In this document: in pieces, positions 34,629 through 57,389 of the stretch
How positions within the stretch are numbered: the stretch's first letter is position 1
Layout: each line of letters starts with the position of its first letter
DNA from: Fibrobacter sp.
GTDB taxonomy: Bacteria > Fibrobacterota > Fibrobacteria > Fibrobacterales > Fibrobacteraceae
Length of the DNA: 58,507 nucleotides
Direction: 5' to 3'
Assembly (NCBI GenBank): GCA_012511955.1
Contig: JAAZFC010000013.1
Span: 1 to 58,507, forward strand
Position numbers and translations under genes: made by a program
Notes under the pieces: generated by a model
What the model was told of the DNA's origin: nothing
The model's input: only the letters and a program-made list of their open reading frames with translations
The model's database searches: none

Positions 34629-34823
34629 ATAGTTTGTTTTTAGTAAATCTAAGCTATACTAAGGCTTTCAAATTTTTATTTTAGAAGATAATGTGTCAAT
34701 TTAATTTCTTATTTTGTAGTTTTAAATAGATAAGTTTTAGATTATTTTAATGATGGAGTGTAGTTAAAGACTTTGTATTAATAGAATTAATTGATATTTA
34801 TTTTAAGGAAGGGAGCTTTTATT

Positions 34824-36155
34824 GTGGATGTTAATGAACTAATAGTTAACTGGTGTCCAAGAAGAATAACAGAAGATACCAAGAAATGCTTTGAATTGGA
34901 AAAAATGGAAAATAAGACTTTAGAGGTAGTTGAAATTTTTGCTGGAGTTGGTGGATTTAGATTAGGTTTGGAAAAACATAACTATAAAGTTATTTGGAGT
35001 AATCAATGGGAGCCTACAACTAAAACTCAACACGCTTCCATGGTATATGAAGCAAGGTTTGGATCTGAAAATCATTCTAACCAAGATATTGCAACAGTCC
35101 CAACAAATGAAATTCCTGATTGCGATGTTCTTTGTGGAGGGTTTCCTTGCCAAGACTATTCCGTGGCAACAACACTAACTAATTCTAAAGGATTAAAAGG
35201 AAAAAAAGGTGTGCTTTGGTGGTCCATTCACCGTATACTCGAAGAAAAAGTGAATAAGCCAAAATACTTATTCTTAGAAAATGTGGATAGATTGCTGAAA
35301 TCTCCGGCTAGCCAAAGAGGGAGAGATTTTGCAGTTATGTTGCAAAGTTTAAATGAATTAGGATATGCTGTAGAGTGGCGTGTAATTAATGCCGCTGAAT
35401 ATGGAATGCCACAAAGAAGAAGAAGAATATTTATTTTAGGCTACCATAAATCAACTGAAATTTACAAGCGATTGGTTAAAAGTGATAAACTAGATTGGAT
35501 AACCAAAGATGGAACTATTGCAACATCATTTCCTGTGACTAAAAAAAACGCATTATTCACTCCTAGTATTGAGCTAAAAGGAGATTTGGTAGATATCACT
35601 AATAACTTTAACAAAAAGGGAACAGACTCTCCTTTTGAAAACACAGGAATTATGGTTAATGGTGTAGTTACAACAATAAAAACAGAGCCTAAATATAATG
35701 GAGATTTTGTTGTATTGGGTGAAATATTACAGAATGGTAAACTAACACCAGAGTTTTATATTCCAGAAGAAGATAAAGAAAGATGGGAATATTTAAAAGG
35801 AGCTAAATCTTTAGATAGAGTGTCTAAAAACGGACACAAATATAAGTACTCAGAGGGAGGAATGGTCTATCCAGATTCTTTAGATAGACCCTCTCGAACA
35901 ATAATCACTGGTGAAGGAGGGAAATCACCCTCTCGTTTCAAACATGTAGTGAAAACAAAAAAGGGTCTGCGTAGATTAACTCCTATAGAGCTAGAACGAT
36001 TAAATATGTTTCCTGATAATCACACGAAATTAGAGGGTATAACAGATGCAAAAAGAGCTTTTTTTATGGGAAACGCATTGGTTGTAGGTGTTGTGGAAAA
36101 AATAGGAAAACAACTTCATAATCAAGTGTATAAATATGAGTATGCAGAAATATGA
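34824..36155 (+). CDS. DNA (cytosine-5)-methyltransferase of a Sau3AI-type system
   Basis: 443 aa from the GTG at 34824, with AAGGAAGGGAG upstream; an in-frame extension to 34791 is disfavoured. Motif I is EIFAGVGGFRLGLE, motif IV is GGFPCQDYSV with the catalytic Cys, motif VI is FLENVDRLL, motif VIII is MPQRRRRIFI and motif X is AFFMGNALVVGVVEKI. The target-recognition region lies between about 215 and 375. It should protect host DNA against the nuclease encoded directly downstream, with which it overlaps by 20 bases. The codon and base use are clearly more AT-rich than in the neighbours, a sign of transfer. Confidence 0.93.
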   Translation: MDVNELIVNWCPRRITEDTKKCFELEKMENKTLEVVEIFAGVGGFRLGLEKHNYKVIWSNQWEPTTKTQHASMVYEARFGSENHSNQDIATVPTNEIPDCDVLCGGFPCQDYSVATTLTNSKGLKGKKGVLWWSIHRILEEKVNKPKYLFLENVDRLLKSPASQRGRDFAVMLQSLNELGYAVEWRVINAAEYGMPQRRRRIFILGYHKSTEIYKRLVKSDKLDWITKDGTIATSFPVTKKNALFTPSIELKGDLVDITNNFNKKGTDSPFENTGIMVNGVVTTIKTEPKYNGDFVVLGEILQNGKLTPEFYIPEEDKERWEYLKGAKSLDRVSKNGHKYKYSEGGMVYPDSLDRPSRTIITGEGGKSPSRFKHVVKTKKGLRRLTPIELERLNMFPDNHTKLEGITDAKRAFFMGNALVVGVVEKIGKQLHNQVYKYEYAEI

Positions 36156-37530
36156 TTTCACTTCAGTAGATTCAGTTGTTGAGTTTGCAAAATTATTGAA
36201 GAATAGAACCTTACGCGAAGTATGTAGTAAGGAAATTGAAGAACACGGGTATAAGGGCAAAGGAAATTTCGGCCAAATTTTAGAAAAGTTTTATTTTGGC
36301 TATGAACCAAACTCTGATGCTGAATCTGATTTTCCAGAAGCAAGTTTGGAACTTAAATCTAGCCCACTTAAAGTTTTAAAAAACGGAGAATACCGATCAA
36401 AAGAGCGATTGGTTTTAAACATCATAAATTATTTAGAAGTCCATAAAGAGACTTTTGAAGAAAGCTCTTTTTGGAAGAAAAACGCACATTTACTTCTAGT
36501 GTTCTATTTGTGGGAAGCAGAAACAGATATTTTGGATTACATAATCAAATTAGTAGATGATTGGAGTTATCCAAATGAAGATTTAAAAATCATTAAGCAC
36601 GATTGGGAAACGATTAATCAAAAAATAAAAGACGGTAAAGCCCATGAAATTTCTGAAGGTGATACCTTTTATTTAGGAGCTTGTACAAAAGGCTCTACAG
36701 CTTTAAAATCTCTAAGACAACAGCCTTTTAATTCTGAAAAAGCTAAACAAAGAGCATATTCCTTAAAGCAAGGATATGTGAATCATATTATTGCTAAAAT
36801 TTCTAAAGGTGAAAAAGGGACATTTGGCAAAATTATTCAAAAACCAGAAATCCTTGATAAGGAATGTATTGAAAAGTTTATTATTTCAAAATTTGAACCT
36901 TTTTATAATAAAACCGCCCAACAAATAGAAAAGCACTTTAATTTAAAATTAAACCAAAAGGCAAAGAGTTATTTTGCCAATCTAACTAACTCAATCCTTG
37001 GAATCGGATTAAATAAACGTATAGAAGAGTTTGAAAAGGCAGATGTTATTGTAAAAACAATTCGACTAAAGGAAAACGACTTACCAAAAGAAGATGTCTC
37101 ATTCCCAACTTTTAAGTACGAAGATATAATTGAAATTAATTGGGAAGATTCAGATTTCAAAAATATGTTAGAAAGTAAGTTTTTCTTCGTGTTTTATCAA
37201 TTTACAAGAGATAAACTCGTTTTAAGAAAAGTAAAGTTTTGGAATATGCCACAAGTTCATATAGAAGAAGCAAAAAAAGTTTGGGACAAAACAAAGAGAA
37301 ACATAAAAGCAGGGCTTATTGTTAAAGAAATTACCGAAACAGGCAGGCGTTTAACTTACTTTCCCAAAAAATCTGAGAGCAAAGTAAGTCATGTGAGGCC
37401 TCATGCTAGGAACGCTGATGACACTTATCCATTACCCCAAAAAGATATATTGACAGGAGTAAAAGAATATACCAAGCATTGTTTTTGGATAAATGCACAG
37501 TATGTAAAAGACGAAATTTATGAGAAATAA
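36136..37530 (+). CDS. Type II restriction endonuclease, Sau3AI/MutH family
   Basis: 464 aa. The N-terminal nuclease domain resembles MutH/Sau3AI: KGNFGQILEKFYFGYEPNSD, then the metal site DFPEASLELKSSPL (D...ExK), then ERLVLNIINY. A second region has DTFYLGACTKGS and LRQQPFNSEKAKQRAYSLKQ, also typical of Sau3AI, whose C-terminal half is a catalytically inactive copy used for allosteric DNA looping. Sau3AI cuts GATC, so that target is likely but inferred. AT-rich like the methyltransferase. Start at MSMQKYDF inside the methyltransferase gene. Confidence 0.88.
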   Translation: MSMQKYDFTSVDSVVEFAKLLKNRTLREVCSKEIEEHGYKGKGNFGQILEKFYFGYEPNSDAESDFPEASLELKSSPLKVLKNGEYRSKERLVLNIINYLEVHKETFEESSFWKKNAHLLLVFYLWEAETDILDYIIKLVDDWSYPNEDLKIIKHDWETINQKIKDGKAHEISEGDTFYLGACTKGSTALKSLRQQPFNSEKAKQRAYSLKQGYVNHIIAKISKGEKGTFGKIIQKPEILDKECIEKFIISKFEPFYNKTAQQIEKHFNLKLNQKAKSYFANLTNSILGIGLNKRIEEFEKADVIVKTIRLKENDLPKEDVSFPTFKYEDIIEINWEDSDFKNMLESKFFFVFYQFTRDKLVLRKVKFWNMPQVHIEEAKKVWDKTKRNIKAGLIVKEITETGRRLTYFPKKSESKVSHVRPHARNADDTYPLPQKDILTGVKEYTKHCFWINAQYVKDEIYEK

Positions 37531-44166: not shown

Positions 44167-44378
44167 ATTTTAATGCTCCGTTGTTTTTTTTATTACACTC
44201 GTTTGTCCAATTAATTTTAAGATAACTAATTTAAAAGCGAATTGCAACGCCTTGGTTGCTTATGTTGCACCAGCCACCAGCAACAAATCACCGCTAGTTA
44301 AAATTACCCACTAAATGGAGTTTTATTCCATTTGCTAAGCAAAATTAGCTATATTTAAGCTGTGGTTTGGTGAAAATC

Positions 44379-44984
44379 ATGAATGTTTTGCAGCAATTTG
44401 GCAATATTCCCGTTAGTGCGGCGACGCTGAGGTCGGCGTTTAGCCATTTGCATTTTCCGCAAAACAAGTTGGCTGCCCTAGAAAAAAGTGGCGCAATTAT
44501 TCGCGTCAAAAAGAATCTGTATGTGGTGGCCCAAGGGCTGATTTCGCGGGAATTGGTGGCCAATCATTTATATGGGCCATCTTACCTTTCTCTGCAAAGT
44601 GCCTTGGCTTATTATGGCATGATTCCCGAAAGGGTTTATAGCGTGCTTTCCATGACCTTGAAACGCTCCAAAACTTATCGCACGCCCCTGGGAGAATTTA
44701 GCTACCAAACAGTAAACGCCTCTTATTTTCACTTGGGCATTAATCAAGAAACCGTGGCTCAGAGCTACACCTTTTTGTTGGCCAGCCCCACCAAAGCGAT
44801 ATGCGATATGATTGTGGGCACCCCAAATTTGCGCATTCAATCTGTGAGTGCGCTGCGGGATTATTTATTTGCCGATATGCGCTTAGATTTTGACTTAGAA
44901 CAGCTTTTGGACCGCGAATTGGTACAGCAATGTTGCGCCACCGGGACCAAAGCAGCAATTTTACGCCTTTTGCTGGAGCTTTAA
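44379..44984 (+). CDS. abiEi: AbiEi-like antitoxin of a type IV toxin-antitoxin system
   Basis: About 201 aa from the ATG at 44379; in-frame TTG and GTG codons upstream (44367, 44370) are alternatives. N-terminal winged-helix (VSAATLRSAFSHLHFPQNKLAALEKSGAIIRVKKNLYVV) binds DNA in the family and represses the operon. The C-terminal domain has SYLSLQSALAYYGMIPE and SPTKAICDMIV. The AbiEii toxin follows after 3 bases. The 212 bases upstream (44167-44378) hold no other gene. Confidence 0.87.
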   Translation: MNVLQQFGNIPVSAATLRSAFSHLHFPQNKLAALEKSGAIIRVKKNLYVVAQGLISRELVANHLYGPSYLSLQSALAYYGMIPERVYSVLSMTLKRSKTYRTPLGEFSYQTVNASYFHLGINQETVAQSYTFLLASPTKAICDMIVGTPNLRIQSVSALRDYLFADMRLDFDLEQLLDRELVQQCCATGTKAAILRLLLEL

Positions 44985-44987
44985 AAT

Positions 44988-45824
44988 ATGAGCACTTCTA
45001 TTTACGACAATATGCTCGCCAAATACCCAATTGCTAGTCAAGAAGACTTGAAAAACGCGACTTTTGAAGTCATGCAACAGATAGTTTTGGCAGGTCTCTA
45101 CCGCAGTGGTTTTTTTGATATAGCCGCCTTTTACGGGGGTACTTGTTTGCGAATTTTTCATGGCTTGCAAAGGTTTTCCGAAGATTTAGACTTCTCGCTT
45201 TTGGCACCTGATCCCGAGTTTAATTTAGAGAACTATTTTGCCACCATTGTGGAGGAATTTCGAGGTTTAGGCAAAGATGTGGTCATCAGCAAAAAGCAAA
45301 AATCTCAGCGGAGTCCAGTGGAATCAGCTTTTTTGAAAGCCGACACCAAAATTTACGATTTGAGCTTCACCACGGGCAAAACCATTAAAATTAAAATTGA
45401 AGTGGATACCCAGCCTCCTTTAGGCTTTGCCACAGAGCAGAAATTGCTACTTTCGCCCTTTTCTTTTTTGACTCGTTGTTATAGTTTGCCCGATCTTTAT
45501 GCGGGAAAAATGCATGCTTTTTTGTTTAGAAATTGGAAAAACCGGGTCAAAGGGCGCGACTGGTACGATTTTGAATACTATGTGCGCCACCAAGTTCCGC
45601 TAAACTTTGCGCATTTCAAAAATAGAATGCTGCAGTTCAATTCCATTGCCATTGCAAACTATCATGTTGCTGATTTTAAGATTGATTTGCGCGAGCGCAT
45701 TAAAAGCACCAACTTAGCAGCGGTGATTGACGATGTGAAACCCTTTGTGAAAAACCCTAGCGATTTAGATTTATGGTCAGTGGAATACTTTTTGCGACTA
45801 GTGGATTTAATCTGCTTCATCTAG
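44988..45824 (+). CDS. abiEii: AbiEii-like nucleotidyltransferase toxin
   Basis: 278 aa with GGAGC upstream. The DNA polymerase-beta-type nucleotidyltransferase motif is complete: FYGGTCLRIFHGLQRFSEDLDFSL, with the GG(T/S) loop and the DLD metal ligands, then IKIKIEVDT with the third acidic residue. The YAGKMHAFL and GRDWYDFEYYV segments are typical of DUF1814/AbiEii. Such toxins modify tRNA or bind GTP and block growth during phage infection. Confidence 0.9.
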   Translation: MSTSIYDNMLAKYPIASQEDLKNATFEVMQQIVLAGLYRSGFFDIAAFYGGTCLRIFHGLQRFSEDLDFSLLAPDPEFNLENYFATIVEEFRGLGKDVVISKKQKSQRSPVESAFLKADTKIYDLSFTTGKTIKIKIEVDTQPPLGFATEQKLLLSPFSFLTRCYSLPDLYAGKMHAFLFRNWKNRVKGRDWYDFEYYVRHQVPLNFAHFKNRMLQFNSIAIANYHVADFKIDLRERIKSTNLAAVIDDVKPFVKNPSDLDLWSVEYFLRLVDLICFI

Positions 45825-50573: not shown

Positions 50574-50951
50574 GTGTCAACAAGAAATCTAAATTCCGTT
50601 TTAATGGTGGCTGACCGTATTTTGCTCAAGCCCCATAATCCTGCCAATCAAACTTCGGGGGGCTTGTATTTGCCGCCCAGCGTCAAAGAAAAAGAAGCCA
50701 TTCAAACCGGCGTGGTCATGCGTGTGGGGCCAGGTTATCCCTTGCCCCCAGAGCAAAGCGACATCGATAGCTTTTTGGGAGAAGGTGAAAGCAATCCTCG
50801 CTATATGCCCCTGCAAGTGCAAGAGGGCGACCAAGCGGTGTATTTACAAAAGCACAGCTTTGAAATCGAAATTCATGAAGAAAATTACATGATCGTCCCC
50901 CAAAGCGCCATATTGATGGTATTCCGCGATTCTTTAGGCTTGGATATTTGA
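50574..50951 (+). CDS. GroES-family co-chaperonin-like protein
   Basis: 125 aa, GTG start. The fold of the Hsp10 family is recognisable: ADRILLKPHNPANQTSGGLYLPPSVKEKEAIQTGVVMRVG (the mobile loop is the TSGGLYLP region) and the C-terminal YLQKHSFEIEIHEENYMIVPQSAILMVF. It has an insertion of about 25 residues (PPEQSDIDSFLGEGESNPRY) relative to normal GroES of about 95 residues, and no groEL is next to it. It may be an additional, divergent co-chaperonin. Confidence 0.82.
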   Translation: MSTRNLNSVLMVADRILLKPHNPANQTSGGLYLPPSVKEKEAIQTGVVMRVGPGYPLPPEQSDIDSFLGEGESNPRYMPLQVQEGDQAVYLQKHSFEIEIHEENYMIVPQSAILMVFRDSLGLDI

Positions 50952-50995: not shown

Positions 50996-52012
50996 GTGAA
51001 GTCCTACTTACTGCGTCGCCTCTTGCTGATGATCCCCACCTTGCTGGGAATCACCGTGCTATGCTTTGCCATCACCCAGCTCATTCCGGGAGGGCCGGTA
51101 GAAGAGTTGATCAGTCGCACCAAAGCTGCAGCGGCGCAAAGTGGTGGTTTAGATGCCAGTCGCAGCCTTTCTCCCGAGCAAATCGAGGCGATAAAAGTAC
51201 ATTACGGTTTCGACAAACCCGTGTGGAAGCGCTATGTGCTGTGGTTGGGGCAGGTGGTGCGCTTGGATCTCGGCGAATCTTTCACCTATGGCGAACCCGT
51301 GTGGGATGTGATAAAATCCCGCTTTCCCATCTCGTTATTTTTTGGCTTGACCTCATTTTTTCTCAGCTATTTGATCTGCATTCCCTTGGGAATGATTAAA
51401 GCGGTGCGCCACGGCTCGCGTTTTGACACTTGGTCTTCGGTGGCCATATTTTCGGGCTATATTATGCCCGGATACGCCTTGGGAATCCTGCTGCTGGTGT
51501 TTTTAGGCGGCGGCTCCTATCTGGATTGGTTTCCCCTGGGAGGCTTGGTTTCCGAAAACTTCGCCTACTTAAACTGGTGGCAAAAAATCGGGGATTTGGC
51601 GCATCACTTGGCGCTGCCTTTGCTGTGCTATATGATCGGAGAATTTGCTTTTTTGACCCAGTTGATGAAAAATTCCGTGCTCGAAGAACTAGGCCGCGAT
51701 TATATGCGCACTGCTTTGGCCAAAGGCATGAGTTTTAGACAAGCTTTGTGGCAACACGCCCTGCGTAATGCTCTAGTGCCCATCGCCACCCGGGCTAGCG
51801 AGATTTTTACCCTGATGTTTGCTGGGGCTTTGCTCATCGAAAAAGTTTTTGACATCGACGGCATGGGATTGCTCTATTACAACGCCATGATCGGACGGGA
51901 TTACAATGTGGTCTTGGGGATAATTTTGCTCTCTAGTTTACTTGCGCTTTTAGGTCGTTTATTTGCCGATATTCTCTACACTTGGGTGGATCCCCGCATT
52001 CAGTTTAAGTAG
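50996..52012 (+). CDS. yejB: Peptide ABC importer permease, YejB/OppB type
   Basis: 338 aa, GTG start, about six membrane helices. The N-terminus YLLRRLLLMIPTLLGITVL and the insertion SRTKAAAAQSGGLD resemble YejB. The EAA motif that contacts the ATPase is near RDYMRTALAKGMSFRQALWQHALRNAL. The end DILYTWVDPRIQFK is characteristic. It is the first gene of a three-gene importer unit; the substrate-binding protein YejA is not in the window. Confidence 0.9.
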   Translation: MKSYLLRRLLLMIPTLLGITVLCFAITQLIPGGPVEELISRTKAAAAQSGGLDASRSLSPEQIEAIKVHYGFDKPVWKRYVLWLGQVVRLDLGESFTYGEPVWDVIKSRFPISLFFGLTSFFLSYLICIPLGMIKAVRHGSRFDTWSSVAIFSGYIMPGYALGILLLVFLGGGSYLDWFPLGGLVSENFAYLNWWQKIGDLAHHLALPLLCYMIGEFAFLTQLMKNSVLEELGRDYMRTALAKGMSFRQALWQHALRNALVPIATRASEIFTLMFAGALLIEKVFDIDGMGLLYYNAMIGRDYNVVLGIILLSSLLALLGRLFADILYTWVDPRIQFK

Positions 52013-52017
52013 GTAAA

Positions 52018-53052
52018 ATGGCTGTTTCCGAACTAAGTCGCATGCGTTTTAACCGTTTCCGCTCCCATAGGCGGGGCTGGTGGTCCCTGTGGATTTTGCT
52101 GGTGGCCTACGGATTTTCTCTGCTCAGCCCCTGGTTGGTGAGTGAACGCCCCCTGTTGCTCAACTGGGATGGCGCACTAAAAGTTCCGGTATTGTTTCAC
52201 TATTCCGATGCGGATTTAGGCGGACAATACGCCACCGAAGTGGATTATCACCGCTTAGCTGAACGGGCACAACAGCAAGATGTAAAATATTGGTCCCTGC
52301 GCGCTCCCATTCCCCACGATCCCCTGAGGGCGCATTTAACTGCAGAAGGAGCTCCGCCCTATCCGCCTTCCAAAACCCACTGGCTAGGTACCGATGCCCA
52401 TGGTCGCGATATGTTGGCGCGCCTAATTCACGGCTTTAGGCTTTGTATGAGTTTTGCCCTATTGCTCACTCTAAGTTCCACGGTTTTGGGAGTGATTTTA
52501 GGCGGTTTACAGGGATATATTGGGGGCAAATTTGACTTGAGCGTGCAGCGCTTTATCGAAATCTGGTCGGCCTTGCCCTTTTTGTATGTGGTAATCTTGG
52601 TGGGCTCCATTTATGGCACCAGTTTTTGGCTCTTATTGCTGATTATGACCGCTTTTAGTTGGATAGGAATGTCTTATTATATGCGGGGCGAATTTCTGCG
52701 TTTGCGCCGCATCACTTATGTAAATGCTGCCCGGGTCTTGGGGCTTTCAGGGCCGCATATCTTTTTCCGGGAAATTTTGCCCAATGCATTGGTGCCTGTG
52801 ATCACCCTCTTTCCCTTTAGCTTAATTGGGGGCATAACCGCGCTCACATCTTTGGATTTTTTGGGCTTCGGTTTGCAACCGCCCGCACCTTCATGGGGAG
52901 AACTTTTGGCCCAAGGTTTGCAGAATTTATACGCACCGTGGATCACGATTTTCACCGTTTTGGCGCTGTTTTTTACCCTTTTACTGGCGACTTTTGTGGG
53001 CGAAGCCCTGCGGGATGCCTTTGACCCCAAATCCGGAGATCGCTATGAGTAA
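52018..53052 (+). CDS. yejE: Peptide ABC importer permease, YejE/OppC type
   Basis: 344 aa, about six membrane helices. It has the YejE hallmark of a long periplasmic segment after helix 1 (YSDADLGGQYATEVDYHRL) and the GTDAHGRDMLARLIHGFR motif. The EAA loop is YVNAARVLGLSGPHIFFREILPNALVP. FIGEALRDAFDP-type ending is present as VGEALRDAFDPKSGD. It begins 5 bases after yejB and overlaps the ATPase gene by 8 bases. Confidence 0.92.
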   Translation: MAVSELSRMRFNRFRSHRRGWWSLWILLVAYGFSLLSPWLVSERPLLLNWDGALKVPVLFHYSDADLGGQYATEVDYHRLAERAQQQDVKYWSLRAPIPHDPLRAHLTAEGAPPYPPSKTHWLGTDAHGRDMLARLIHGFRLCMSFALLLTLSSTVLGVILGGLQGYIGGKFDLSVQRFIEIWSALPFLYVVILVGSIYGTSFWLLLLIMTAFSWIGMSYYMRGEFLRLRRITYVNAARVLGLSGPHIFFREILPNALVPVITLFPFSLIGGITALTSLDFLGFGLQPPAPSWGELLAQGLQNLYAPWITIFTVLALFFTLLLATFVGEALRDAFDPKSGDRYE

Positions 53053-54640
53053 ACTCGTGCTAAAAGTGGTGGACTTATCCGTGGGATTTGGTGATTCTGA
53101 AAATCACACCGCCGCAACCCATGGTATTAATTTTCACATAGAAGCCGGGGAAATCTACGCTTTAGTGGGGGAGTCCGGCAGTGGTAAAACCGTAACCGCC
53201 ATGGCTCTTACCAATTTGTTGCCTCGCCCTGGGGGCAAAGTGCTAAGTGGACAAGTATGGCATCAAGAGCAGGATTTATTAGCCGAATCTGCACATTGGG
53301 AACAAGCTCGGGGTTCTCAAATCGCCTATATTTTCCAAGAACCGTCTTTGGCCATGAATCCCGTGCGCACCGTCGGATCGCAAATGGTGGAATGCGCCCC
53401 GCAACACAGCGATTCTCAACGCGAAGAGCTGTTGCAACAAGTGGGCTTCACCGATACGGGTCGCATTTTGCGCAGCTATCCCCACGAGCTTTCCGGCGGC
53501 CAACTGCAGCGCGTGATGATCGCCATGGCATTGCTCACCGATCCGCCGATTTTAGTGGCCGACGAACCCACCACCGCCTTAGATGTTACCGTACAAGCCC
53601 AAGTCATGGAACTTTTGTGCCAATTGTGTCAAGAACGCAACATCGCCCTGTTGCTTATTACCCATAATCTCGCCCTGGTATCTACTTATGCCCAGCGAGT
53701 GGGGGTCATGGAAAAAGGATATTTGGTGGAAGAAGGCTCCGTGGCGCAAATTATCGCCCAACCCCAGCATACTTACACCCAAGCTTTGCTCCAAGCCGTG
53801 CCCCACGGTTCCAAAAGCTATGGTCAACGCTCTGAAATCAGCGAGCAAAGCATTTTACAAGTGGAAAATCTCAGCGTTTCGTACCCGGTGCGGGGCGGAT
53901 TTTGGGGACGAGTGCAAAATCATGTCCACGCCGTGCAAAATGTGGATTTAACCCTGCATGCCGGAGAAATTTTAGCCCTAGTGGGGGAGTCTGGATGCGG
54001 AAAAAGCACCTTAGCCCGCTCTTTGCTGGGCATGCACCCTTGGAAAAATGGCACCATGACCTTATTGGATACCAAAATAGCGTGGACGGAAAAAGAACAT
54101 CGCGAATTAGTGCGCCAAAACATGCAAATGGTATTCCAAGATCCCTACGGATCGCTTAATCCCCGCCAAACCGTGGCGGAACTTCTCACCTGGCCTTTGC
54201 GCGCTCGGGGAATCACCGGAAATGCAGCGCAAAAAATGGCCCTCCAAGCTTTGGATCAAGTGCAGCTGGAACGCAATAGTATGGAACGCTTTCCCCACGC
54301 ATTTTCGGGGGGCCAACGCCAGCGCATCGGCATCGCCCGGGCCTTGGCCTTGCAAAGCAAAATCATCATCTGCGACGAACCCACCTCCGCCCTAGATGTA
54401 TCGGTGCAAGACCAGATTTTGCGCCTATTGCAACAATTACGCCAAGAATTAGGCATATCTTTGCTATTCATTTCCCACGATTTGGCGGTGGTGCAATCCC
54501 TGTGTGATCGGGTGATGGTTATGTACGAGGGACAAGTGGTGGAACACGCCCCCGCCGCCCAACTTTTCGCCACTCCCCAGCACGCTTATACCCAAAAACT
54601 CCTGGCCAGCGCGCCTACCATAAAAAAACACAATTCATAG
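53045..54640 (+). CDS. yejF: Peptide ABC importer ATPase with two nucleotide-binding domains, YejF type
   Basis: 531 aa from the ATG at 53045; an in-frame extension to 52994 lies inside yejE. Two complete ABC domains: first Walker A GESGSGKTV with signature LSGGQLQRVMIAMAL and Walker B LVADEPTTALDV; second GESGCGKST with FSGGQRQRIGIARAL and IICDEPTSALDV. Each domain ends with the oligopeptide-transporter C-terminal segment (HTYTQALLQAVP, HAYTQKLLAS). It powers uptake of oligopeptides or peptide antibiotics. Confidence 0.93.
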   Translation: MSKLVLKVVDLSVGFGDSENHTAATHGINFHIEAGEIYALVGESGSGKTVTAMALTNLLPRPGGKVLSGQVWHQEQDLLAESAHWEQARGSQIAYIFQEPSLAMNPVRTVGSQMVECAPQHSDSQREELLQQVGFTDTGRILRSYPHELSGGQLQRVMIAMALLTDPPILVADEPTTALDVTVQAQVMELLCQLCQERNIALLLITHNLALVSTYAQRVGVMEKGYLVEEGSVAQIIAQPQHTYTQALLQAVPHGSKSYGQRSEISEQSILQVENLSVSYPVRGGFWGRVQNHVHAVQNVDLTLHAGEILALVGESGCGKSTLARSLLGMHPWKNGTMTLLDTKIAWTEKEHRELVRQNMQMVFQDPYGSLNPRQTVAELLTWPLRARGITGNAAQKMALQALDQVQLERNSMERFPHAFSGGQRQRIGIARALALQSKIIICDEPTSALDVSVQDQILRLLQQLRQELGISLLFISHDLAVVQSLCDRVMVMYEGQVVEHAPAAQLFATPQHAYTQKLLASAPTIKKHNS

Positions 54641-54712: not shown

Positions 54713-56281
54713 ATGGGTAACAAGTGGAATGCATTCGAAGAGTTAGGCATAGCAGGCTATAGCACTAATCAAGAAAAAGCGCAAGCCTTTATGCGTTTGG
54801 CATTGCAATTCCATCCAGATATAAATACCCGTTCTAATCCCCAGCGATTTATAGATATTTGTTATGCCTATGAAAAAATTGGCACCCCTAAAGTTTTTCA
54901 ATGGAATGGAGAAAGAGAGTTAGAATTACAAAAGTATTATGGAAGCAGAGATGAGTACGATATATTCGATGCTTTAAAAACTTTTGCCCACTTTATTGGA
55001 GGAGGTGGTTGCTCAGAAAAAGCTGGTGATATTATTATTCGTTTAGATATCGGTCTAAATGATGTATTGTTGGGAAACTATAAATCCATGCAACTTATTC
55101 GTGATGTGAAATGTTTGGAATGTGCTGAAAATTTAAAAAGCAAATGTCATTCTTGTAAAGGTTTTCGTAGGGTAAGGGTAGATGAAAAGATTAATATTGA
55201 AATAGCACCTGGAGTGTCCACAGGAAATATTTTGTGCTTTCCCCAACAAGGAGATTTCGATGTAGAAAGTGACGAGTTGGGAGATTTATATGTGGTGTTT
55301 TTCGAAAAATTGCCTAAAAACTTAACTCGTAAAAATGAAAATGTGCAAATAGATATAGAAGTGGATTTAACCACTATGGCTTTAGGGGGTACGGCAGCAG
55401 TACAAGGTTTGAGAGGAGATATGCATTATTTTAAAGTGCCACCTCAAACACAATCAGGGACAAAAATTCGCATTGCGGGCCAAGGTTTACCTATTTTAGG
55501 TACGCCGCGATGGGGGAGTTTGATATGTAAAACCATAGCTAAAATGCCAGAGCTTGGACCTAAGGAGAGCGAATTATTTGCAAAACTCAAAGAATTTATT
55601 GTTTCCAAAGGAGAATTGCGCTATTGCACTTACGGCCAAGTGGGATTAATTAAATTGGAACCCCAGCACGATACGCCCATGTTGCTGGAAAGATTAATTG
55701 ATCTATCCTTGGTTTTGCGCAATTCAGGACTGAGTATTGCTTTTGATTTACAAGATTTTGGGGATAATATTTCGGGAGAAGTTTTTAATGCCTTATTAGA
55801 AGTTTATCGGCGGTTTGACGGTCAAGGTCCCATTAGGTTAATAGGGCATCCTTCAATTAATATACAACTACAGCAACTGCAAATAGAGTCGCTTTTTAGT
55901 ATTATATCTAATGTAGATGGTCTGAAAGAAATAGAGACTACGCCTTTAGAAAATGCTTTAGGAATCTACAGTCACGCCAAATGGGAGGTTTATCCCATGG
56001 GGGACACAAGTTTAAATAGTGATTATATTTTATCGTCTGTGGAGTTGAGTTCTTATTTAGAACCTCAAGGAACACTTTTTAAAGCTTTTGATATGTCTAA
56101 AGTACCGCAAATTGATTCTTTCTTTATGGGACGACTGGTGAGTTGTTATCGCTATGTCAGCAAAAACGGCGGAAAAATAGCTTTGATCTCGTTGCAACCC
56201 TTGGTTCGCAAAGTTTTAGAAGAAACTAGCATTTTGAATTTATTTGTGGAAGTGGGTAGCGTTAGTGATTTGCCAGACTGA
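54713..56281 (+). CDS. DnaJ-like co-chaperone fused to two C-terminal STAS domains
   Basis: 522 aa. J-like domain at residues about 5-60 with the HPD motif (FHPDIN, 34-36). A reduced zinc-binding region has only two CxxC motifs (CLEC, CHSC, about 133-149) instead of four. DnaJ C-terminal substrate-binding domains follow (about 150-290: IEIAPGVSTGNILCFPQQGD, MALGGTAAVQGLRGDMHYFKVPP, GTKIRIAGQGLP). Then two STAS-like domains: about 308-405 (GQVGLIKLEPQHD, IAFDLQDFGDNISGEVFNALLEVYRRF) and about 420-520 (FKAFDMSKVPQIDSFFMGRL, KIALISLQPLVRKVLEET). STAS domains act in anti-anti-sigma and stressosome-type switching. The fusion suggests a link between protein folding state and a signalling partner. 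I do not know of this architecture. Confidence 0.8.
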   Translation: MGNKWNAFEELGIAGYSTNQEKAQAFMRLALQFHPDINTRSNPQRFIDICYAYEKIGTPKVFQWNGERELELQKYYGSRDEYDIFDALKTFAHFIGGGGCSEKAGDIIIRLDIGLNDVLLGNYKSMQLIRDVKCLECAENLKSKCHSCKGFRRVRVDEKINIEIAPGVSTGNILCFPQQGDFDVESDELGDLYVVFFEKLPKNLTRKNENVQIDIEVDLTTMALGGTAAVQGLRGDMHYFKVPPQTQSGTKIRIAGQGLPILGTPRWGSLICKTIAKMPELGPKESELFAKLKEFIVSKGELRYCTYGQVGLIKLEPQHDTPMLLERLIDLSLVLRNSGLSIAFDLQDFGDNISGEVFNALLEVYRRFDGQGPIRLIGHPSINIQLQQLQIESLFSIISNVDGLKEIETTPLENALGIYSHAKWEVYPMGDTSLNSDYILSSVELSSYLEPQGTLFKAFDMSKVPQIDSFFMGRLVSCYRYVSKNGGKIALISLQPLVRKVLEETSILNLFVEVGSVSDLPD

Positions 56282-56285
56282 TATT

Positions 56286-57389
56286 ATGGCCCAAGGTGGC
56301 AGTGCTTTAGGGCGTTATCAAGGGAAAATTATTTTTATTGAGGGAGCTTTGCCTGGGGAAAAAGTACAGATAGAAATTATCAAAGCTAAAAAGGACTTTG
56401 CTCAAGCACGGGTGGTCAAGGTGTTAGAACCATCGCCGTATCGCATAGATGCAACTTGTCCCCTTTACGGTGTCTGTGGTGGATGCAATATGCAGCATGC
56501 AAATATTGCGGGGCAGCGGAAGTTTAAAAAAGAGGTGGCCGCCGACGCTTTTAAGCGCATGGGAAAAATCGATTTACCTGCATCTTTAACCATTAGCGGC
56601 GGCGAGCCATGGGAATATCGCAGTCGCGCGAGATTTCACCAATCCCCGCAACAAAAGTGGGGCTTTTTGCGAGCCCAATCTCGCCAGGTGGTGCCAGTGG
56701 CGCATTGTCCTTTGCTCACGCCGGGTTTACAAAAAAACTGGCCCCAACAGGTGGCAAAGCAAAAAGCCCGGCAAATGCAGATCTGGGAGGGCACTGCGGG
56801 GATTTCTGCATGGGATACGCACCCCCGCACTAAGGCCCCAGCGGCGCAAACGCAAATTTTGCACAAAACATTTAGCGCCGATGCCTCGGTGTTTTTCCAA
56901 TCGAATTTGCCCATGACCGAGGTGCTGCTAGAGCGCGTTTTGCACCACATACCCAGCAGCGGGGGCCGCGCCATCGATCTTTTCAGCGGGGTGGGAGTCT
57001 TCGCGGCATTTTTAGAAGAGCATTTTGAACAGGTGCAAGCCGTGGAGCGCCACCTGGGGTGCATGGAGCATGCTCGGCGCAATTTGCGACCTAGCACGGA
57101 GTTTGTAAATGCTCCTGCCGAAACTTGGCTCACCAGCAAATCCGGTCGCCATGCGGATTTACTGGTGGTGGATCCCCCTCGTACCGGATTGCCCGCAAAT
57201 TTGCGCCAAAGCCTCGTGGCAGCCCGCCCTCGCAATATGATTTATGTGTCTTGCGATCCCGTAACCCTAGCTCGGGATGCAGGGGAATTGGTGCGGGCTG
57301 GTTGGGAACTCCAAGCCGTGGAAGCCTTTGATTTTTATCCTCAAAGCCATCACCTGGAAATGCTGGCGGTGTTCAAAAACGCGGACTAA
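56286..57389 (+). CDS. RNA (uracil-5-)methyltransferase, RlmD/TrmA family
   Basis: 367 aa from the ATG at 56286, 4 bases after the previous stop. An N-terminal TRAM domain (GGSALGRYQGKIIFIEGALPGEKVQ) is followed by Fe-S cysteines (CPLYGVCGGCNMQH and CPLL) and the SAM-binding domain (DLFSGVGVFAAFL). The catalytic site is IYVSCDPVTLARD with the nucleophilic Cys and VVDPPRTGLP. The end DFYPQSHHLEMLAVF is the family signature. It makes 5-methyluridine in rRNA or tRNA; which RNA cannot be told. Confidence 0.92.
   Translation: MAQGGSALGRYQGKIIFIEGALPGEKVQIEIIKAKKDFAQARVVKVLEPSPYRIDATCPLYGVCGGCNMQHANIAGQRKFKKEVAADAFKRMGKIDLPASLTISGGEPWEYRSRARFHQSPQQKWGFLRAQSRQVVPVAHCPLLTPGLQKNWPQQVAKQKARQMQIWEGTAGISAWDTHPRTKAPAAQTQILHKTFSADASVFFQSNLPMTEVLLERVLHHIPSSGGRAIDLFSGVGVFAAFLEEHFEQVQAVERHLGCMEHARRNLRPSTEFVNAPAETWLTSKSGRHADLLVVDPPRTGLPANLRQSLVAARPRNMIYVSCDPVTLARDAGELVRAGWELQAVEAFDFYPQSHHLEMLAVFKNAD

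Follow-up and report, generated by a model that had tools for sequence, protein, structure and literature searches.

Bacterial STAS domains are modules used as phosphorylation switches. A link between chaperones and gene regulation is known from E. coli, where DnaK and DnaJ bind the sigma factor sigma-32 directly and the chaperone pair is thereby connected to gene regulation by client load. Within DnaJ, zinc centre I is formed by CxxC motifs I and IV. PMC9237128 and PMC8256260 name the serines, located in a conserved loop, at which RsbS and SpoIIAA are phosphorylated, and the control of sigma-32 by DnaK/DnaJ is touched on in PMC12826045. Zinc centre II was reported to be needed for the interaction with DnaK and centre I for substrate binding (Linke 2003, as quoted in PMC4428491), and a DnaJ from which most of the zinc domain was missing remained a competent co-chaperone with DnaK (PMC4428491).

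The window analyzed here, a stretch of 58,507 nucleotides from a Fibrobacter sp. (genome G000), encodes a protein, P0001, in which a DnaJ body is fused to a STAS region. The 522-aa frame called in the first-pass annotation was recovered exactly (Table 1). The canonical grpE-dnaK-dnaJ operon lies elsewhere in the genome, on contig C80, and the genome holds one DnaK; P0001 is therefore an extra DnaJ paralogue. The family is a real, conserved and rare combination of two well-known modules (DnaJ/Hsp40 and STAS) and is apparently undescribed: searches of the open-access literature returned incidental matches and no paper on a J-domain/STAS combination, in line with the first-pass annotation, to which no described family with this domain order was known. 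The reading favored here, tentatively and at somewhat less than an even chance, is that P0001 arose from a DnaJ paralogue and now acts as a client-sensing STAS adaptor, with an N-terminal sensor and C-terminal STAS in the manner of RsbR and YtvA.

Table 1. Features of P0001, its locus and its relatives (window coordinates unless a genome or locus is named; residues are those of P0001)
Feature	Position	Strand	Evidence or remark
DnaJ-STAS fusion protein P0001, 522 aa	54713..56281	+	ORF and Pfam; orthologue P0002 with 40% identity and same synteny
J domain, degenerate, residues 5-60	54725..54892	+	Pfam DnaJ and match to solved J domain
HPD motif, residues 34-36	54812-54820	+	Within J domain of P0001
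Half zinc finger, CLEC (134-137) and CHSC (145-148)	55112..55156	+	Aligned with five canonical DnaJs of Fibrobacterota
DnaJ_C client-binding beta domains, residues 109-279	55037..55549	+	Pfam PF01556, E 6.6e-25; Foldseek to Hsp40 structures
Probable STAS1-like domain, residues 302-412, no DS motif	55616..55948	+	AlphaFold topology; positional counterpart of P0003 STAS1
STAS2 domain (residues 419-522), the most conserved domain	55967..56278	+	Pfam PF01740, profile matches, 52% identity to P0002
Ser469 (IDSF motif), aligned with RsbS/SpoIIAA phosphoserine	56117..56119	+	Alignment to RsbS and SpoIIAA
ABC transporter of oligopeptide type: two permeases plus one frame carrying two ABC ATPase domains (OppD and OppF type)	50996..54640	+	Pfam; order conserved in G044 and G041; directly upstream of fusion
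rlmCD-like uracil-5 methyltransferase	56286..57389	+	Pfam; ATG 4 bases past fusion stop
P0002	G044:C8		40% identical to P0001, orthologue
P0003	G034:C33		588 aa; all four CxxC motifs; both STAS clear
P0004	G044:C122		One weak STAS
Shared operon of two distant genomes	L033:3965-8885, L037:5992-11492		OM barrel + TPR 760/782 aa, TPR-TM-HEAT 441-443 aa, DnaJ-STAS

The J-like domain with an HPD motif that had been claimed is present in P0001. Pfam places it at residues 7-57 (E 2.1e-5; 25.0 bits, just under the cut-off of 27.8), and the J region alone matched solved Hsp40 J domains at a best E of 1.7e-5. The HPD is invariant in all four fusion proteins found (P0001-P0004) while the rest of the J domain is divergent; the J domain of P0002 goes undetected by Pfam though its HPD survives, and those of P0003 and P0004 are strong (E 8e-26 and 1e-20, respectively). 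Also as claimed, there is a half zinc finger of two CxxC motifs, which correspond to canonical motifs I and IV, with motifs II and III absent; zinc centre I is thus kept and zinc centre II is absent. All four CxxC motifs occur only in P0003, with motifs I and IV alone in P0001, P0002 and P0004. The claimed C-terminal beta domains were found by Pfam, and residues 61-105 hold a GGGG patch only and no G/F-rich linker. Of the class A DnaJ features, P0001 therefore has the HPD J domain and the C-terminal beta domains and lacks the four CxxC motifs and the G/F linker. Between P0001 and P0002, identity is highest in STAS2 (52%) and CTD2 (48%), followed by CTD1 with the zinc region (40%), STAS1 (34%) and the J domain (24%).

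The label of co-chaperone given to the protein in the first-pass annotation is possibly too strong in view of the J-domain identity, the Pfam result for P0002 and the missing zinc centre II. Because a DnaJ lacking the greater part of this domain still worked with DnaK, the loss of centre II is only suggestive of lost co-chaperone action. It is possible, if doubtful, that P0001 is a specialized co-chaperone whose STAS domains serve only as an address label, directing DnaK to a single partner that binds STAS (a kinase, a transporter or a membrane protein) so that this partner can be folded or assembled. Such a role would agree with an HPD that is invariant despite J-domain divergence, with the strong J domains of P0003 and P0004, and with two features of gene context taken up below, namely a second GrpE beside one fusion gene and an envelope operon common to P0003 and P0004. 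In the P0001/P0002 subgroup, however, the J domain is the fastest-changing and least conserved part, Pfam does not detect it in P0002, and of the two zinc centres only centre I is kept; the client-sensor reading is therefore favored over the co-chaperone with a STAS address.

Two tandem STAS domains had been proposed for the C-terminal half; one is certain and the tandem arrangement is probable. STAS2 was recognized by Pfam (residues 459-511; 27.4 bits vs. a cut-off of 22.6) and scored 34.4 bits against a STAS profile built from Fibrobacterota, where shuffled sequences reached a maximum of 6.4. STAS1 scored 0.5 bits against the same profile, a value reached by 96 of 859 shuffles, so that this part of the claim is supported by model topology and position and not by sequence. 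An AlphaFold model built from a three-row alignment (mean pLDDT 76) displays two successive strand/helix modules in STAS order, with a pLDDT of about 80 across the STAS1 stretch. Foldseek searches of the C-terminal half against the PDB returned almost only STAS structures (TM1081, TM1442, RsbV, RsbS, SpoIIAA and SLC26 STAS), without distinguishing which module was matched; this half was thus modelled as STAS-like, with no non-STAS fold. In P0003, two STAS stretches are recognized (E 6e-13), each at 27-30 bits against the Fibrobacterota profile, and STAS1 of P0001 aligns by position with the first of them, although a direct profile comparison of the P0001/P0002 STAS1 with that of P0003 gave no match (probability 0.66%). 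STAS1 is therefore a probable diverged STAS-like domain on the strength of model and position.

The STAS2 profile matches TM1081 (4e-9), TM1442, SpoIIAA and RsbS; in these alignments D468-S469 falls on the DS pair of those proteins, and Ser469 is invariant in P0001, P0002 and P0003. Two observations count against the client-sensor reading: Ser469 is followed by Phe, as opposed to the Ser/Thr-Gly of SpoIIAA and RsbV, and P0004, the single-STAS relative, is without STAS2. In the mechanism proposed for the client-sensing adaptor, the DnaJ C-terminal domains would take up non-native clients and perhaps pass them on to the single DnaK, and client occupancy would alter access to STAS2. STAS2 would in turn bind a serine kinase of the RsbW/RsbT/SpoIIAB type, from which phosphorylation of Ser469 would release it. 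The output might be a sigma factor or some different target, and the coupling to transcription that the first-pass annotation suggested is conceivable.

The genome does hold the parts of such a circuit in the form of stand-alone STAS proteins, HATPase_c_2 (RsbW-type) kinases and SpoIIE phosphatases. Kinases and phosphatases were present in all five genomes tested, equally in relatives without the fusion; the suggested co-occurrence of the fusion with RsbW-type kinases is thus not specific, and the fusion gene has no kinase, phosphatase or sigma gene as a neighbor. A separate locus of the genome (G000:C7:2957-4500; L065) encodes a 145-aa HATPase kinase, a 265-aa STAS-HATPase fusion and a STAS protein, with similar clusters in G034, G044 and G145. 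The HATPase_c_2 proteins of this locus are candidate kinases for STAS2. Combined, the STAS2 profile matches, the domain identities, the zinc pattern, the switch parts of the genome and the second GrpE and STAS-membrane protein found in G034 (see below) support the client-sensor reading, and the small number of known P0001-type orthologues (two) counts against it.

The profile search across the phylum that had been recommended for J and STAS in one protein yielded four such proteins in 168 genomes. Two restrictive peptide patterns, scanned against the genomes of about 85,000 species, returned two fusion loci, one in the G044 record (uncultured Fibrobacteres, CAIRAY010000008.1) and one in the G034 record (Chitinivibrionales, JANQEN010000263.1); a third match, in a Gemmatimonadaceae genome (L061), was rejected as an ordinary DnaJ. 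Other phyla were covered by this restrictive scan only, and distant examples are possible there. A scan of viral contigs detected no relative, no plasmid record covered 80% of the query, and neither set showed this domain architecture; a mobile or viral origin was rejected on these grounds. A tree of the DnaJ parts groups the four fusions weakly (81/44) on long branches, and a single origin of the four was therefore not accepted.

Both genomes with a window-type gene look like metagenome assemblies, which would fit an artefact of assembly or annotation that fused a dnaJ with a STAS gene. We give this explanation almost no credence: P0002, from an independent lake metagenome assembly, has the same fusion and gene order at 40% identity, a third fusion occurs in a distant lineage, and there is no stop between the DnaJ and STAS parts. 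The orthologue thus refutes an artefact origin and excludes the mis-assembly about which the first-pass annotation had cautioned.

The gene order oppB-oppC-oppD/F-fusion-rlmCD is common to G000 and G044, with tight packing on the rlmCD side, and a tree of RlmCD pairs these two genomes (91/90). OppF lies directly before rlmCD, without the fusion, in genera g5, g7, g8, g9 and g11, and a genome of an outgroup family (G041) has the whole opp operon before rlmCD, also without it; the fusion gene was therefore probably inserted, once, between oppF and rlmCD in the common stem of G000 and G044. Other genes separate OppF from rlmCD in G102, and no OppF directly before rlmCD was found in the stretch read of G034, G043, G053 and G163. 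The fusion gene has a GC3 of 0.30 in G000 vs. 0.53-0.61 in its neighbors. This composition, along with the long branch, the degenerate J domain and a STAS1 unrecognizable by sequence, would fit a paralogue in decay: a DnaJ-STAS gene that relocated to the opp-rlmCD operon and has been losing its function. We consider decay unlikely because the 522-aa frame is intact in two genera at the level of identity given above (highest in STAS2), Ser469, the HPD and all four cysteines are kept, the operon is tightly packed, and the copy in G044 is of normal composition.

The position of the fusion directly after an Opp-type ATPase gene in both orthologues also raises the prospect of an MlaB-like STAS2 that binds an ABC ATPase, by which P0001 would tune the oligopeptide transporter of its operon. 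MlaB is indeed a profile match of STAS2, at an E of 0.17 that is much weaker than those of the anti-anti-sigma STAS domains; moreover, P0003 and P0004 are not located near this transporter and there are relatives with the transporter but without the fusion, making this role very unlikely. Several other features of the window were observed. The OppD- and OppF-type ATPases are fused in a 548-aa frame (52994-54640, +), apparently also in G041, and are separate genes in G044. Upstream of the opp genes is a Cpn10 (GroES) family protein of 125 aa (50574-50951, +), longer than the usual GroES. At 34791-37530 (+), where GC is low (0.31-0.34), a MutH-family nuclease gene comes after that of a C5 cytosine methylase, likely an acquired restriction-modification pair, and two adjacent genes (44367-45824, +) have by eye the look of an AbiEi/AbiEii-type toxin-antitoxin.

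P0003 and P0004 share a different gene order, in which an OM barrel + TPR gene and a TPR-TM-HEAT gene precede the fusion (Table 1); full-length matches to the 441-aa TPR-TM-HEAT protein were obtained only in G034 and G044. Beside the fusion in G034, on the other strand (L037:4896-5986), are genes for a shortened second GrpE of 157 aa and for a 204-aa protein that combines STAS with a membrane helix, with the normal grpE-dnaK-dnaJ of that genome elsewhere. This arrangement suggests that a chaperone module may work for some process of the envelope, and the shared operon possibly encodes a chain that spans the envelope and ends in a chaperone-STAS protein in the cytosol. One could imagine, with considerable reserve, that the Hsp40 body senses non-native proteins and signals directly through the fused STAS to a partner-switching kinase, with P0003 and P0004 placed downstream of the OM barrel + TPR-TM-HEAT operon. 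In G145, a Fibrobacteraceae genome on a single contig, a second GrpE-like gene was also observed adjoining extra HSP70-like frames (G145:C1:2523050-2526687; L124, L130, L135, L136).

Compared with class A DnaJ proteins such as that of the canonical operon (G000:C80), P0001 likewise has an HPD J domain, zinc motifs I and IV, CTD1 and CTD2; it differs in its degenerate J domain, the loss of motifs II/III, the lack of a recognizable G/F region, the addition of two C-terminal STAS domains (STAS1 probable) and its location outside the grpE-dnaK-dnaJ operon. With MlaB of the Mla ABC transporter it shares the STAS fold and a gene beside an ABC transporter, whereas the sequence match is weak and the relatives show no tie to the transporter. 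STAS2 resembles SpoIIAA and RsbV in its fold and in the serine after Asp at the phosphosite, and departs from them in being part of a 522-aa fusion, in having DSFF vs. DSSG/DSTG, and in having no adjacent anti-sigma kinase or sigma gene. The RsbR family and YtvA of the stressosome likewise combine a variable N-terminal module with a C-terminal STAS, the STAS2 profile matches RsbS, and we infer that the DnaJ part of P0001 is the sensor module; here an Hsp40 replaces the RsbR sensor or LOV domain, there are two STAS domains (the first probable), and the neighbors are Opp transporter and rlmCD genes, with no rsbS, rsbT or rsbX adjacent. The signals of STAS-switch sensors such as RsbR are mostly unknown, and a recognizable client-binding chaperone as input names a probable signal, non-native protein. 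P0001 may let misfolded or client proteins act directly on a signaling circuit. The E. coli DnaK/DnaJ-sigma-32 system shares this link between chaperone and regulation, but there it operates by direct binding with no fused switch domain; if the favored reading is true, P0001 would represent an uncommon coupling of Hsp70-system load to regulation, through covalent fusion as opposed to titration of a regulator.
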